NCBI RefSeq assembly: GCF_017377505.1
Contig: NZ_JAFREN010000036.1
Location: forward strand, 1-26,721
Source: Enterococcus sp. DIV0212c
Lineage (GTDB): Bacteria > Bacillota > Bacilli > Lactobacillales > Enterococcaceae
Direction: 5' to 3'
DNA length: 26,721 nucleotides
Positions within the stretch are counted from its first letter, which is position 1, and every line of letters begins with the position of its first letter. Both the position numbers and the translations under genes were made by a program. Shown one piece after another: positions 2,964-19,504 of this stretch. Under the pieces are notes generated by a model, which saw only the letters and a list, made by a program, of their open reading frames with translations, was not told the DNA's origin and searched no databases.

Positions 2964-3289
2964 TCCCGGGTGTATCAAAGAAAGCTTTTCAAGTAATTCT
3001 ACTGTTCGATTCAAACTTTCTTAGAAATTGAAGATTTTGATTATCTTCCTAAAATTGATAACTCTACCTATTTCTGACACTCTAAAAAAAAAGAATCTTT
3101 ATTCATCCCAGTCTCAAAAGGATTTGATAAAAAAAAGAACAAGAACAAAACTTTTATTGTTTTGTTCTTGCTCTTTTATACGATAAAATCAAAGAATTTT
3201 ACTTTATTTATTTTTATCATATTATATATATTGTGCTATAATTTATTTTGCTTAAACATAAAATAAATCAATCTTGGTACTTCCACGCA
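2964..3289. other. gap between rapZ and the 68-residue gene
   Basis: No gene is seen here. The right part holds the terminator at 3133-3177 and an AT-rich tail after the small gene. A plus-strand extended -10 (TGC-TATAAT, 3237-3242) has no convincing -35 and no plus-strand gene after it. The left part (2964-3132) is AT-rich with no other clear structure. Confidence 0.6.
3133..3177 (-). terminator. Rho-independent terminator after the 68-residue gene
   Basis: The arms GAACAAGAACAAAAC and GTTTTGTTCTTGCTC form a long stem with one wobble around a 7-base loop. The arms are flanked by A runs on one side and T runs on the other, so it could work in both directions. It lies about 115 bases after the stop of the small minus-strand gene and isolates the rapZ operon. 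Confidence 0.8.
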
Positions 3290-15263: not shown

Positions 15264-16655
15264 TTAAGCATTTTCTTCAATAACTAGACTACTATCATTC
15301 AGCACATCACGGTCTAACTCTTTAATTCGTGAACTAGTCACGATTCCCGCTACCATACTGTCACTGACGTTAACAGCTGTTCTAGCCATATCGATCAACG
15401 GTTCTACAGAAATAACCAATCCAACGATTGCTACAGGTAAGTTCATTGCACCCAACACGATTAATGAAGCAAACGTTGCCCCACCACCGACACCGGCTAC
15501 ACCAAACGAACTGATTGTTACGATTGCAACTAGCATCAAGATAAATTCTAAACTGAAGACATTGATTCCAACTGTTGGCGCAACTATTGTAGCCAACATA
15601 GCTGGATAAACCCCTGCACAGCCATTTTGTCCAATTGACATACCAAAACTTGCAGCAAAGTTTGCTGTGGCATCATCAACGCCTAAAGCTTTTGTTTGTG
15701 TTTCAATATTTAAAGGCATTGCTCCTGCACTTGATCTTGAAGTAAAAGCAAAACTCAATACTGGGAATGATTTTTTCAAATAATTCACTGGGTTTACTTT
15801 GACTGCCATCAAGATCACTAAGTGAACCAGCATTACGATAATCAATGCGGTGTACGAAGCTAATACAAATTTTCCTAAGTTAAGGATCGCATCAAAATCA
15901 CTTGTTGCAACAACATTCGTCATCAACGCTAAAACCCCATAAGGTGTCAAACGTAAAACTAATGTCACGATACGCATCGTGATTTTATAAAGACTGTCGA
16001 TCAAGTTTGCAAAAAATTCTGCTTCTTTTGGTGCTTTTCTTTTAATACCTAAATAGGCAATTCCAACGAATGCGGCAAAAATCACCACGCCAATCGTACT
16101 AGTAGGACGAGTACCGGCAAAATCTGCAAAAACATTTTTAGGAATAAAAGATAAAATTTGTTGAGGAATCGATAGGTTTTCAACGGTTTCCTGTCGTGTC
16201 GCAAGTTCTGCGATCCGTGCCGTTTCTGCCGTTCCTTCTGTAAATTTCGCACCTTGTAGTCCAAACAATAATGTTGTTCCAATTCCAACCAAAGCTGCTA
16301 TAGCCGTTGTTCCTAATAAGGTTGCCAGGACAGTAAAGCTAATTTTTCCAACTTGCTTGGATTCTTTCATCTTAGTAAATGCTCCTACGATAGAAACAAA
16401 AACCAAGGGGATTACGAGCATTTGTAAAAATGCTACATATCCATTACCTACAATACCGATCCATTCCATTGCTTGCGTTGTAACTTTGTCTTGGGTACCG
16501 AATGCGAATTGAATAATTGCACCTAATACAATACCGACACCTAATGCAGCAAAAACACGTGTTGAAAATTTGTAGTGTTTTGCTTGCATACGATAAAAGA
16601 CGTATAACACTGCAAGAAAAGCAAGGACCACTAAAACAGTGATGAGTGTTGTCAT
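15264..16655 (-). CDS. tcyP: TcyP-type L-cystine:cation symporter (DAACS family)
   Basis: Membrane carrier of 463 residues, the same length as Bacillus subtilis TcyP and very similar to it by eye. Family blocks are visible: LQMLVIPLVFVSIV, ARPTSTIGVVIFAAFVGIA, TPYGVLALM, SFAFTSRSSAGAMPLNIE, SIGQNGCAGVYPAMLA and SFGVAGVGGGATFA, with a last segment SVEPLIDMARTAVNV. It would take up cystine with a cation. The start at 16655 (MTTLITVLVV) is fixed by GGGAGG seven bases upstream; that ribosome binding site ends the leader element at 16663-16787. It is a single gene with its own terminator. Cystine as substrate is inferred from family resemblance. Confidence 0.88.
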   Translation of the reverse strand: MTTLITVLVVLAFLAVLYVFYRMQAKHYKFSTRVFAALGVGIVLGAIIQFAFGTQDKVTTQAMEWIGIVGNGYVAFLQMLVIPLVFVSIVGAFTKMKESKQVGKISFTVLATLLGTTAIAALVGIGTTLLFGLQGAKFTEGTAETARIAELATRQETVENLSIPQQILSFIPKNVFADFAGTRPTSTIGVVIFAAFVGIAYLGIKRKAPKEAEFFANLIDSLYKITMRIVTLVLRLTPYGVLALMTNVVATSDFDAILNLGKFVLASYTALIIVMLVHLVILMAVKVNPVNYLKKSFPVLSFAFTSRSSAGAMPLNIETQTKALGVDDATANFAASFGMSIGQNGCAGVYPAMLATIVAPTVGINVFSLEFILMLVAIVTISSFGVAGVGGGATFASLIVLGAMNLPVAIVGLVISVEPLIDMARTAVNVSDSMVAGIVTSSRIKELDRDVLNDSSLVIEENA

Positions 16656-16662
16656 TTTTTTC

Positions 16663-16787
16663 CCTCCTAAATTTGAAAGCGTGACGGGCTCGTTCAACTC
16701 TGACAGAAAAATAGGAAAATATATTTGTGACGCTTGTTGTCACAGTTAAATTTTATCTTTTTTCCCAAAGAGTTAGCTAGTGAAGCC
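16663..16787 (-). repeat. structured leader element C (upstream of tcyP)
   Basis: Copy of a family seen four times in the window (also 18900-19015, 19023-19127, 19436-19504). Read on the minus strand it has a basal stem (AACTCT with AGAGTT), a middle stem made of GGGAAAA and its partner TTTTTCTG, an asymmetric loop AGAT opposite CCTA, and an apical stem TGTGAC/GTCACA. It ends in CAAATTTAGGAGG, the ribosome binding site, 7 bases before the start codon. Confidence 0.75.
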
Positions 16788-17022
16788 AGAATCCGCAATT
16801 GAAATGACAAGTACATCAAAGGAAGTAAAGGTTCCCGGGGATCATTCTTCAACGATCCGCCCTAAAAATAAATCAATTCATTTTCAGTGATAGGTACATT
16901 GTACCTGATTTAATAGCCTGAGGGGTATTATTTTGTTTCTATAACGATAGAAAAAAGAGTTTGTGATAGCTAGAAACTATCACAAACTCTTTATAGTAGT
17001 TAAAATTAAGGCTTCCTGACAA
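16788..17022 (-). other. upstream part of the tcyP leader and promoter region
   Basis: No gene is seen. It contains the DUF1149 terminator (16954-16992), a 13-base palindrome GGTACATTGTACC at 16893-16905, and an inverted repeat at 16839-16858 (arms GGATCGTT and AATGATCC on the minus strand). A tentative promoter is TTGAAG (16847-16852) and TTTACT (16824-16829), spaced 17 bases; its -35 falls inside that inverted repeat. No T-box or S-box signature was found. Confidence 0.45.
16954..16992 (-). terminator. Rho-independent terminator of the DUF1149 gene
   Basis: The arms AAAGAGTTTGTGATAG and CTATCACAAACTCTTT are perfectly complementary around a 7-base loop, followed by a T run on the minus strand. 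It lies about 30 bases after the stop. Confidence 0.92.
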
Positions 17023-17412
17023 TTATGCTTCGGGTGCTGATTGGAAGTTTAATTGGATACCAGGTATGTCTAAAGCAATTTCAGTGATTTCATATGCCAT
17101 GCGTTGAACGATACTGAACAACGGACTAACTAATTCATCCACTTCTTCTTGGCTGATATCTTCTTGTTTTTCAATTTTGTGATTGATTACGTGATTGATT
17201 TGGCTAACTGAGCCTGACAAAACATATTCCTCAAAAACTAAACGAAACTCTAAACGAGCTGCAATGATTGAATTTTCTTTTGGGTAATTTTCATCTGTCG
17301 ATTCGATAGGTGAAAATCCCACTCTAAGGTCTGTTTCTACTTCTTCCATATCTTGTGTGCGCATATCATAATGAAAAGCCTCTACAACTTCTTGTTGACG
17401 TTTTAATTCCAC
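17023..17412 (-). CDS. DUF1149 family protein
   Basis: Acidic cytoplasmic protein of 129 residues. It starts MELKRQQEVVEAFHYD and has the central region RLEFRLVFEEYVLSGSVSQINHV typical of the DUF1149 family of Lactobacillales. A SecB-like fold has been reported for this family as far as I recall; the function is unknown. The start is GTG, with AAGGAG about 9 bases upstream. An extended -10 (TGT-TATAAT, 17500-17508) gives an 80-90-base leader. It is a single gene between the UPF0210 gene and tcyP. Confidence 0.8.
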   Translation of the reverse strand: MELKRQQEVVEAFHYDMRTQDMEEVETDLRVGFSPIESTDENYPKENSIIAARLEFRLVFEEYVLSGSVSQINHVINHKIEKQEDISQEEVDELVSPLFSIVQRMAYEITEIALDIPGIQLNFQSAPEA

Positions 17413-17499
17413 GTTGGTATTCTCCTTTTTCTTTTATGTCCGATAGCCATTATCTCTACCCTTGTGAAGCGTGTAAAAAATAATAGTTGTCTTTCATAT

Positions 17500-17508
17500 A
17501 TTATAACA
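17500..17508 (-). promoter_or_regulatory. extended -10 promoter of the DUF1149 gene
   Basis: TGT-TATAAT on the minus strand, followed by an AT-rich leader. The -35 is weak. Confidence 0.55.
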
Positions 17509-17548
17509 TACTTCTTTTTCTCACAAATACTAAGAAAATTTTTTTAAT

Positions 17549-18892
17549 CTAATTTTTAAAGGAATGAATCGGTGCTGGAATACGGCCGCCTCTTAAAATA
17601 AAATCTGTTGAAGCATACTCATTAACTTTCATAACTGGAGCTCTTCCCAATAAACCGCCGAATTCGACCATATCTCCAACCTTTGTACCTTTCGCAGGTA
17701 TGATTCTGACCGCAGTGGTTTTATGATTAATCACGCCGATTGCCGCTTCATCTGCAATCATTGCAGCAATCGTTTCAGCTGAGGTTTCGCCTGGAATCGC
17801 AATCATATCTAAACCAACTGAGCAAATTGCTGTCATCGCTTCTAATTTTTCCAAGTTTAATGCACCATTGTTAACAGCATCGATCATTCCCGCATCTTCT
17901 GAAACTGGAATAAATGCGCCTGATAGTCCACCAACATGATTACAAGCCATCACGCCACCTTTTTTCACTGCATCATTTAATAAAGCCAACGCAGCAGTTG
18001 TTCCGTGTGTTCCCACACTTTCTAAACCCATTTCCTCTAAAATATAAGCAACACTATCTCCAACAGCTGGAGTTGGCGCCAAAGATAGATCAACGATTCC
18101 AAAAGGAACATTCAAGCGTTCTGAAGCGATTTTACCAACTAGTTGTCCCATTCTGGTAATTTTAAAAGCGGTTTGTTTTACTACTTCTGCAACAACATCA
18201 AAAGGTTCTCCTTTGACTTTCTCCAATGCTCGTTTGACTACTCCTGGTCCGCTGACACCTACGTTGATCACACAATCCGCTTCACCCACACCGTGAAAAG
18301 CACCAGCCATAAATGGATTATCTTCTACAGCATTTGCAAAAACAACTAATTTTGCACAGCCCATATCTGATTTTTCGGCAGTTTCTTTGATTACATAGCC
18401 CATATGACGAACTGCATCCATATTGATTCCTGCTCTGGTTGAGCCAATATTCACGGATGAACAAACAAACTCTGTTTCCGCAAGTGCTTGAGGAATTGAA
18501 TTAATCAAGATCTCATCACCATGTTGATAGCCTTTTTCAACTAAAGCACTGAACCCACCAATAAAGTTAACTCCAACTGCCAAAGCTGCCTTGTCTAAAA
18601 CTTTAGCATATTTTACATAATCTTTATCTGGACTAGCAGCTGCGATAATGCCGATCGGTGTCACAGAAATTCGTTTATTGATGATAGGAATTCCGTACTC
18701 AGTCTCAATCTCTGCTCCAACTTTTACTAGATTTTTTGCTAAACGAGTAATTTTGTCATAAATTTTTTGACATGCTCGATCACTATCGCTATCGATACAA
18801 TCTAACAAAGAAATTCCCATTGTAATGGTTCTAATATCTAAATTCTCTTCTTCGATCATGCGAATAGTTTCTAAAATTTGATTTGTCTCCAA
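17549..18892 (-). CDS. UPF0210 (PFL-like) protein
   Basis: Protein of 447 residues of the UPF0210/DUF711 family, structurally related to pyruvate formate-lyase but with no proven function. Visible blocks are [27 protein letters not shown] at the N-terminus, [21 protein letters not shown] and [11 protein letters not shown], with [19 protein letters not shown] in the C-terminal third. The start is TTG at 18892: AGGAGG lies exactly 7 bases upstream, and the frame open beyond it would run into the leader repeat. It is almost always paired with an ACT-domain protein, as here, and shares the promoter at 19557-19584. Two structured repeats separate the two genes. Confidence 0.9.
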
Positions 18893-18899
18893 AATGATA

Positions 18900-19015
18900 C
18901 CTCCTAAATTTAAAAGCATAGCGGGCTCGTTTAGGCTCGTAGAAAAATAGGCTTGTGAAGCTTTTTGTCACTAGCAGATTTTATCTTTTTTCCTAGAGAC
19001 TAGCCCGTGAAGCTA
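18900..19015 (-). repeat. structured leader element B2 (upstream of the UPF0210 gene)
   Basis: Second copy nearest the gene. The basal stem uses GGGCT with AGCCC, the middle stem TAGGAAAA with TTTTTCTA, the same AGAT/CCTA loop, and an apical stem GCTAGTGA/TCACAAGC with one mismatch. It ends TTAAATTTAGGAGG, the ribosome binding site of the UPF0210 gene. Confidence 0.75.
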
Positions 19016-19022
19016 GATAATG

Positions 19023-19127
19023 TTAAAAGCTGAAAGAGCTCATTTAACCTTGACAGGAAAATAGGAAAAAATAACTGAGACGTTCTTTGACTCATTTATT
19101 TTTTATCTTTTTCCCGAAATGGAGCTC
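19023..19127 (-). repeat. structured element B1 between the ACT and UPF0210 genes
   Basis: Basal stem GAGCTC-ATTT with AAATGAGCTC, one bulged C; middle stem CGGGAAAA with TTTTCCTG; internal loop AGAT/CCTA; apical stem of A-rich bases ending TGAG/CTCA. Unlike the other copies it is followed not by a ribosome binding site but directly by B2, joined through AGCTTTTAACATTATCTAGC. Confidence 0.75.
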
Positions 19128-19158
19128 CCCATTGAGCCTAGTAACATAACGCTGATTC

Positions 19159-19428
19159 TTATAATTTATGCATAGCATTAAAGATTTCTTCATTTTGAAT
19201 ACTGATCGTCACACCGAGCTTCTCACCCAAAGTATTTAATTCTGAGCGGATATTTTCAAAATTATTTTTTCCCTTACCTATTTCCAAGACCATCATCATT
19301 GTAAAATAACTATCCATGATCGTTTGAGAAACATCCAGAATGTTCATATCAAGTTCAGCTAATTTTTGACTAACACCTGCAATGATCCCTACTTTGTCTT
19401 TACCAATTACCGTTAATACCGCACGCAT
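19159..19428 (-). CDS. ACT-domain protein, UPF0237 family
   Basis: Small protein of 89 residues that is a single ACT domain. MRAVLTVIGKDKVGIIAGVSQKLAE covers the first strand and helix, with the ligand-pocket turn GKDKVGIIAGV; a second strand-helix pair follows. ACT domains bind amino acids or other small ligands, so it may be a sensor for its partner UPF0210 protein; that is inferred. The ATG at 19428 has AGGAGG 7 bases upstream. It is first in the two-gene operon. Confidence 0.93.
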   Translation of the reverse strand: MRAVLTVIGKDKVGIIAGVSQKLAELDMNILDVSQTIMDSYFTMMMVLEIGKGKNNFENIRSELNTLGEKLGVTISIQNEEIFNAMHKL

Positions 19429-19435
19429 ATCGATT

Positions 19436-19504
19436 CCTCCTAATTTTAAAAGCTGAATGAACCGTTTATCTTTTTTCCGAGAGGCTGGTTCATGAAGCTA
19501 GATA
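19436..19504 (-). repeat. short structured leader element A (upstream of the ACT gene)
   Basis: Shortened copy. It has the left half with GGAAAAAAGATAAA but lacks the inner return arm. The basal stem is ATGAACC with GGTTCAT. It ends AAAATTAGGAGG, the ribosome binding site of the ACT gene. Upstream, CAGTTTTTGAATTATCTAGC matches the joint between B1 and B2, so a further copy may once have stood there. Confidence 0.7.

Follow-up and report, generated by a model that had tools for sequence, protein, structure and literature searches.

A dispersed palindromic repeat

The 26,721-nt window (contig NZ_JAFREN010000036.1 of Enterococcus sp. DIV0212c, positions 1 to 26,721) carries four copies, designated c1 to c4, of an imperfect palindrome; they belong to a repeat family with a unit of ~122 bp. 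The repeat is a mobile element resembling miniature inverted-repeat transposable elements (MITEs) that lands just 5' of Shine–Dalgarno (SD) sequences and amplifies in tandem. It is considered mobile because related genomes carry filled and empty alleles of one site, the aroB-aroC junction, with a 122-nt insert between TA and GGAGG. Probably, the unit is a non-autonomous MITE-like palindrome that inserts at a TA dinucleotide 5' of the SD and whose arms are maintained at the DNA level. Other genomes, contigs and loci are referred to below by handles beginning with G, C and L, respectively.

Within the host genome, 71 matches were listed with c3 as the query and 68 with c1. A profile located 77 copies in 44 arrays of one to four units in the window and 40 fetched stretches; the latter were picked by similarity to the repeat, and unselected stretches were scanned in addition. 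The unselected scan of the host genome (two stretches, 658 kb) yielded 29 copies in 20 arrays, or about 100 arrays per genome assuming an even spread. An earlier note on the window had likened the spread of the copies to that of BOX elements in pneumococci, and this is supported. As with MITEs, the unit is short (122 nt), A/T-rich, palindromic, with arms that pair over 36 positions, and noncoding as judged from its length alone. The linkers between units are often alike inside one array.

Some arrays contain a second module of ~90–100 nt that begins with GCTTTGAAAC, ends near GTTGTTACCATGCATT and joins two units; examples are L235 (aroB-aroC of G024), L233 (G001) and L119 (host genome). Its parts GCTTTG and CAAAGC could pair, and the composite elements may hold two stem-loops. 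A divergent subfamily with a CGCTTTTCTATG-like right end and a GGAAAATAGATAATCTTCACATGGAAC-like core occupies positions 104223-104579 and 242235-242470 of contig C34, away from SD sites, as are most of the relatives read in other genera.

Filled and empty insertion sites

Among 22 genomes, the aroB-aroC junction is filled in six and empty in 14, including the host genome, with two left unread. Of the 14 empty alleles, 12 have a TA immediately 5' of the G-rich SD and read TAGGAGG in seven genomes, TAGGGGG in three and TAGGGAGG in two; the alleles with no TA before the SD are those of the distant genomes G004 and G022. The insert of G011 comprises exactly 122 nt between TA and GGAGG, ends in TTA and leaves all of the target bases in place. 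That of G025 measures 121 nt, and the filled alleles of G001, G002, G023 and G024 are longer and modular. TA is present at both ends of the G011 and G025 inserts, as in a target-site duplication, at this one clean locus. At tsf, inspection by eye revealed units or remnants of the repeat in 17 of the 22 genomes (one or more in each) and none in five, and the number of units differs between species.

Transposases of the IS630-type (DDE_3) and Y1 families were considered as partners of the repeat and rejected, as neither is found in the host genome. Among 22 genomes of the genus, Y1 transposase is present in 12 and DDE_3 in two.

Comparison with known repeats

MIRU of mycobacteria are polar tandem repeats at translation-initiation junctions inside operons, and in this respect they resemble the present repeat. 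They differ in using stop/start overlaps and in being readable as coding sequence, whereas the present unit forms a hairpin on the SD side. RUP of pneumococcus targets TA and is linked to an IS630 transposase; in contrast, the host genome has no IS630-type transposase match. In the description given in PMC3049150, RUP is otherwise similar, being a short repeat with terminal inverted repeats and a target-site duplication. The same source portrays BOX of Streptococcus pneumoniae as a dispersed, folded, sometimes transcribed intergenic repeat whose inner modules occur in tandem and whose arrays vary in size, and its authors judge BOX parasitic rather than host-specialised (PMC3049150). By that description both families are dispersed, folded and intergenic with variable tandem arrays; BOX differs in its A-B-C modular build, and SD-adjoining placement does not appear in the parts of the source that describe it. 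The repeat appears to behave as a MITE of the BOX or RUP type.

Among named repeats of enterococci, the nearest is EFAR (E. faecalis repeat)/Efa-1, which we infer to be one family. EFAR insertion deletes most of the stem-loop target, whereas aroC of G011 gained 122 nt with no target loss, a comparison drawn at one locus. It is possible, if rather unlikely, that the present repeat is a member of the EFAR miniature insertion sequences in a sister species, with another unit composition. Both families are palindromic, intergenic and modular repeats of the same genus, composite copies with the second module occur here, and EFAR elements are listed as MITEs 'in Enterococci' (PMC3733652, in the part consulted). 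However, the two differ in description: the relevant passages give Efa-1 of E. faecalis as a 163-bp repeat made up of two neighbouring stem-loops (PMC2267715), as opposed to 122 nt and a single long stem-loop here, and Efa elements as preferring the 3' ends of genes (PMC1590033) rather than SDs. Unpublished data cited in PMC1590033 suggest that Efa RNA stabilises co-transcribed mRNA. A literature search that covered few subscription journals found no SD-adjoining enterococcal repeat.

Rfam provided no usable match in the window, and the statement of the earlier note that no named family was recognised holds in that database. The sole Rfam match at E up to 1 is to the plastid psbA 3' untranslated region family (3127-3179, minus strand; 29.2 bits compared with a cut-off of 55.8) and is taken as chance.

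Placement at Shine–Dalgarno sequences

In 15 of the 20 host-genome arrays found in the unselected 658 kb, the start of a same-strand open reading frame (ORF) lies no more than 35 nt from the array end or is overlapped by the array, and a sixteenth (C40 235842) has AGGAGG ahead of a short ORF. An automatic test called for at least five of the six bases of AGGAGG, a start codon 4-12 nt further on and an ORF of at least 50 codons. In unselected stretches of G000, G011, G024 and G026 it was passed by 41 of 57 arrays, compared with 466 of 20417 intergenic TA sites (2.28%) given an equal window in three of those stretches; with a tighter window the counts are 36 of 57 and 193 of 20417 (0.95%). Several of the arrays that fail are short-ORF or truncated cases in which AGGAGG is visible. 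At the right ends, TA or TAA lies directly 5' of GGAGG in 52 of 65 cases, and at the left ends TA is present at the junction in 36 of 48.

Genes downstream of 34 of the fetched arrays, together with the three of the window, were scanned for family matches. The repeat adjoins the SDs of unrelated genes, as the earlier note had proposed from the window, and no common pathway is evident among them: matches include pstC, trpB, fabD, tsf, lgt, dapA, clpB, pyrB, proV, hslV and codY, as well as cas5c and rarA-like, fdrA-like and mfd-like genes. These names rest on E-values and not always on curated cut-offs, some of the genes being cut by the end of a stretch, and nine of the 37 have no match at E 1e-20. 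At L102 (host genome, contig C8 near 233736) a unit lies directly 5' of the SD of a type I-C cas5c.

These features would be accounted for by insertion at a TA dinucleotide just 5' of the SD (TA-GGAGG or TA-AGGAGG), leaving TA at both ends and usually placing the unit in the same orientation as the following gene. Tandem amplification, or repeated insertion at one SD, would then give rise to arrays of one to four units in the same orientation. Situated between the promoter or upstream cistron and the SD, the element would give a transcript folded into a long hairpin, the base of which would end ~10 nt 5' of the SD; the SD would stay usable, and the effect on the gene would presumably be mild or neutral. 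An enzyme that moves the element is presumed, as is recognition of the target by it rather than selective retention of copies at SDs. The palindrome itself may be kept either by correction of hairpins or quasipalindromes in replication or by a need for folded DNA in movement. Conceivably, though we put it somewhat short of probable, a transposable element targets the ribosome binding site as such (TA plus GGAGG) and colonises 5' leaders and operon junctions across the genome in a single orientation, leaving genes unbroken, its arms being renewed by palindrome correction at the DNA level. If movement to SDs is correct, the repeat has an unusually strict landing site and changes numerous leaders in each genome, including those of tsf, codY, fabD, pyrB and cas5c.

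Several observations weigh against the MITE-like element favoured here. Four arrays of contig C34 (at 104223, 178211, 242235 and 266961) do not adjoin an SD, and two of the four are antisense to both neighbouring genes. The left-end TA includes the first base of the unit itself (the A), and the unit ends are A/T-rich. The other comparisons of full and empty sites agree in outline, with degenerate flanks, so that aroC is the only clean case. Many sites, such as tsf, are common to most species of the clade, and movement there is thus old or slow. Finally, the host genome has no DDE_3 or Y1 transposase match, in a search that covered those two families.

The concentration at SDs could also have arisen if the repeat inserted at many TA sites and only the SD-adjoining copies were kept, being harmless or helpful there. 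TA at both ends, the minority of arrays away from SDs and an A/T-rich right end that suits an open SD are all in keeping with this explanation. Insertions 10-40 bp further upstream should then be equally tolerated, whereas most junctions lie at the SD itself, and selective retention is accordingly regarded as unlikely.

Distribution of the family

With c1 as the query, blastn matches were obtained in 12 of 21 genomes, namely in 12 of 13 of the same genus (host genome included) and in none of the eight from other families of the order. A covariance model gave matches at E ≤1e-5 in 47 of 105 Enterococcaceae genomes and in eight of 17 genera. This model constrains sequence only loosely (0.59 bits per position) and its E-values are rough. 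With up to 34 candidates scored per genome, the matches do not give the number of copies, and some of the distant ones may be to other hairpin repeats.

Thirty loci from six genomes, five of them from four other genera and one (G012) from the same genus, were taken as more distant relatives. All of the 29 that are readable (L301 is truncated) are 117-125 nt long, and in five of the six genomes they resemble the unit at both ends, with an RTCTRGCTTCA-like start and an AGCYTTT-like end; those of G097 have different ends. Inspected by eye, only L287 is directly followed by an SD and a start codon. Placement at SDs therefore seems to be characteristic of this clade's subfamily, since a single one of 29 more distant relatives adjoins an SD. 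Relatives of 122-124 nt in other Enterococcaceae genera are found at L287 and L304, which form one array in G073, and at the L286-L309 loci of G101; their arm sequences differ from the unit while the layout is alike, and some are in tandem.

No match to c1 was found by blastn in annotated plasmids and phages. A short core pattern occurs in seven stretches of viral contigs, three of which show only weak partial matches to the model.

Covariation of the arms and predicted folding

Covariation was analysed in an alignment (A2) of 64 host-genome copies, with 13 of the 77 left out. Paired cells amount to 92.1%, compared with 80.0% after shuffling and 35-50% when the partner is slid. Both sides have changed in 28 of the 36 pairs, and double-change cells number 333 compared with 118 after shuffling. 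The stems proposed in the earlier note thus covary strongly, as do the helices of structured RNAs.

If the structure were selected as RNA, one-sided changes should be mostly G.U. In these 64 copies and all 36 pairs, however, one-sided mismatches comprise 44 G.U and 73 A.C. A larger set of 157 distinct copies from several genomes, examined at 31 core pairs (4769 cells), has 4365 Watson–Crick, 129 G.U, 138 A.C and 137 other combinations. Five of the 36 pairs were excluded from this test, as their non-pairing is apparently subtype-specific, and with all 36 the counts become 138 G.U and 217 A.C. At the core pairs, thinning to copies less than 90% identical gives 109 G.U and 112 A.C, and to less than 82% identical 55 and 53. 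As a control, the stems of tRNA genes in the same DNA (22 distinct genes, 488 pairs) contain 37 G.U and no A.C. Because wobble pairs are not favoured in the repeat while they are in tRNA, covariation of the arms looks like a product of palindrome upkeep at the DNA level and not of leader-RNA selection.

Copies less than 5% diverged show 30 one-sided differences and one two-sided difference, and two-sided differences build up with divergence. Since near-identical copies differ almost solely on one side, compensation proceeds stepwise, and one-step double changes by template switching were rejected. In the part of PMC8794818 consulted, template switching is described as a maker and keeper of hairpins, and its role in stem upkeep is called less clear. 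Stepwise compensation with no wobble preference fits either palindrome correction or a requirement for folded DNA.

The folds of the window copies are mostly not unusually stable. For the copies folded alone, z relative to shuffled sequences is -3.16 for c3, -1.62 for c2, -1.26 for c1 and -0.24 for c4, which makes c3 the one copy with a clear gain in stability over shuffling. Across 34 arrays, the accessibility predicted for the SD is 0.33 when the element is present and 0.47 when the flanks are joined (p 0.01; lower with the element in most arrays), a difference that leans towards the earlier note, in which the structure was suggested to hide or expose the ribosome binding site. Against shuffled upstream sequence it points the other way, at 0.35 with the element and 0.26 after shuffling (p 0.02). 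Consistent hiding of the SD is not predicted, and sequestration as a design feature was rejected, as accessibility shifts in opposite directions against the two controls.

A selected cis-regulatory leader RNA, with a hairpin that controls access to the ribosome binding sites of a regulon and with compensatory changes fixed for the sake of RNA structure, would explain the strong stem covariation, the position at the SD, the presence of a unit or remnant at tsf in most genomes and the lower accessibility relative to joined flanks. It is hard to reconcile with the mismatch counts, with an SD more open than under shuffled upstream sequence, with downstream genes that show no common pathway, with the absence or decay of the element next to the corresponding genes of sister species (aroC being empty in 14 of the 20 genomes read) and with the rarity of SD placement among distant relatives. 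This interpretation is therefore considered improbable, and the suggestion in the earlier note of an RNA structure that hides or exposes the ribosome binding site is not supported. An old variable-number tandem repeat that expands and shrinks in place without movement would suit the varying unit number at tsf and the similar linkers within arrays, and is very improbable given that sister species differ in whether aroC is filled or empty, and given the dispersal over many unrelated loci.

Palindrome upkeep in DNA would carry a warning for RNA discovery, in that covariance by itself would class the repeat as a strong new RNA family and it is the comparison of G.U with A.C mismatches that points to DNA-level upkeep instead. 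If correct, the repeat would be a natural case of textbook 'compensatory' covariation without a functional RNA. With its scores of copies in each genome, it would make directly testable whether covariation can arise without RNA selection.

The window copies and their neighbouring genes

The features of the window are listed in Table 1. The four copies described in the earlier note are present at the stated places, on the minus strand, and the spacing of AGGAGG from the start codons and the identities of the three genes are confirmed by sequence and family matches. Its count of four leader elements stands as a count of copies and not of leaders: the window holds three arrays, namely c1, the tandem of c3 and c2 (model matches 18906-19122), in which c3 lacks a separate SD, and c4, which is derived by shortening. 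The AGAT/CCTA internal loop ascribed to the three complete copies is not upheld for c2, where the strand reads TCTA and the 3' arm is 9 nt shorter.

Table 1 Copies of the repeat and adjoining features in the window.
Feature	Position	Strand	Basis
Sodium:dicarboxylate symporter family gene, downstream of c1 (tcyP-like in the earlier note)	15264..16655	-	Pfam SDF
AGGAGG SD adjoining c1, 7 nt 5' of ATG	16663..16668	-	sequence
c1, one full unit, single-unit array 5' of the tcyP-like symporter gene	16669..16791	-	nhmmer/alignment
DUF711/UPF0210 gene, downstream of the c3+c2 array	17549..18892	-	Pfam DUF711, NF003700
AGGAGG SD adjoining c2, 7 nt 5' of TTG	18900..18905	-	sequence
c2, 3' arm 9 nt shorter, last unit of the two-unit tandem array	18906..19018	-	nhmmer/alignment
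c3, the more upstream of the two tandem units, with a degenerate left arm (model matches 19020-19122)	19019..19140	-	nhmmer/alignment
ACT-domain protein gene, downstream of c4	19159..19428	-	Pfam ACT_6, NF001220
AGGAGG SD adjoining c4, 7 nt 5' of ATG	19436..19441	-	sequence
c4, internally deleted unit, outer stem ATGAACC/GGTTCAT retained	19442..19503	-	sequence, fold, profile

The place occupied by c1 is empty of the unit in E. crotali and E. ureasiticus (L009 and L010). The best named matches of the DUF711 protein are from Enterococcus crotali, E. ureasiticus, E. plantarum, E. quebecensis and E. moraviensis.

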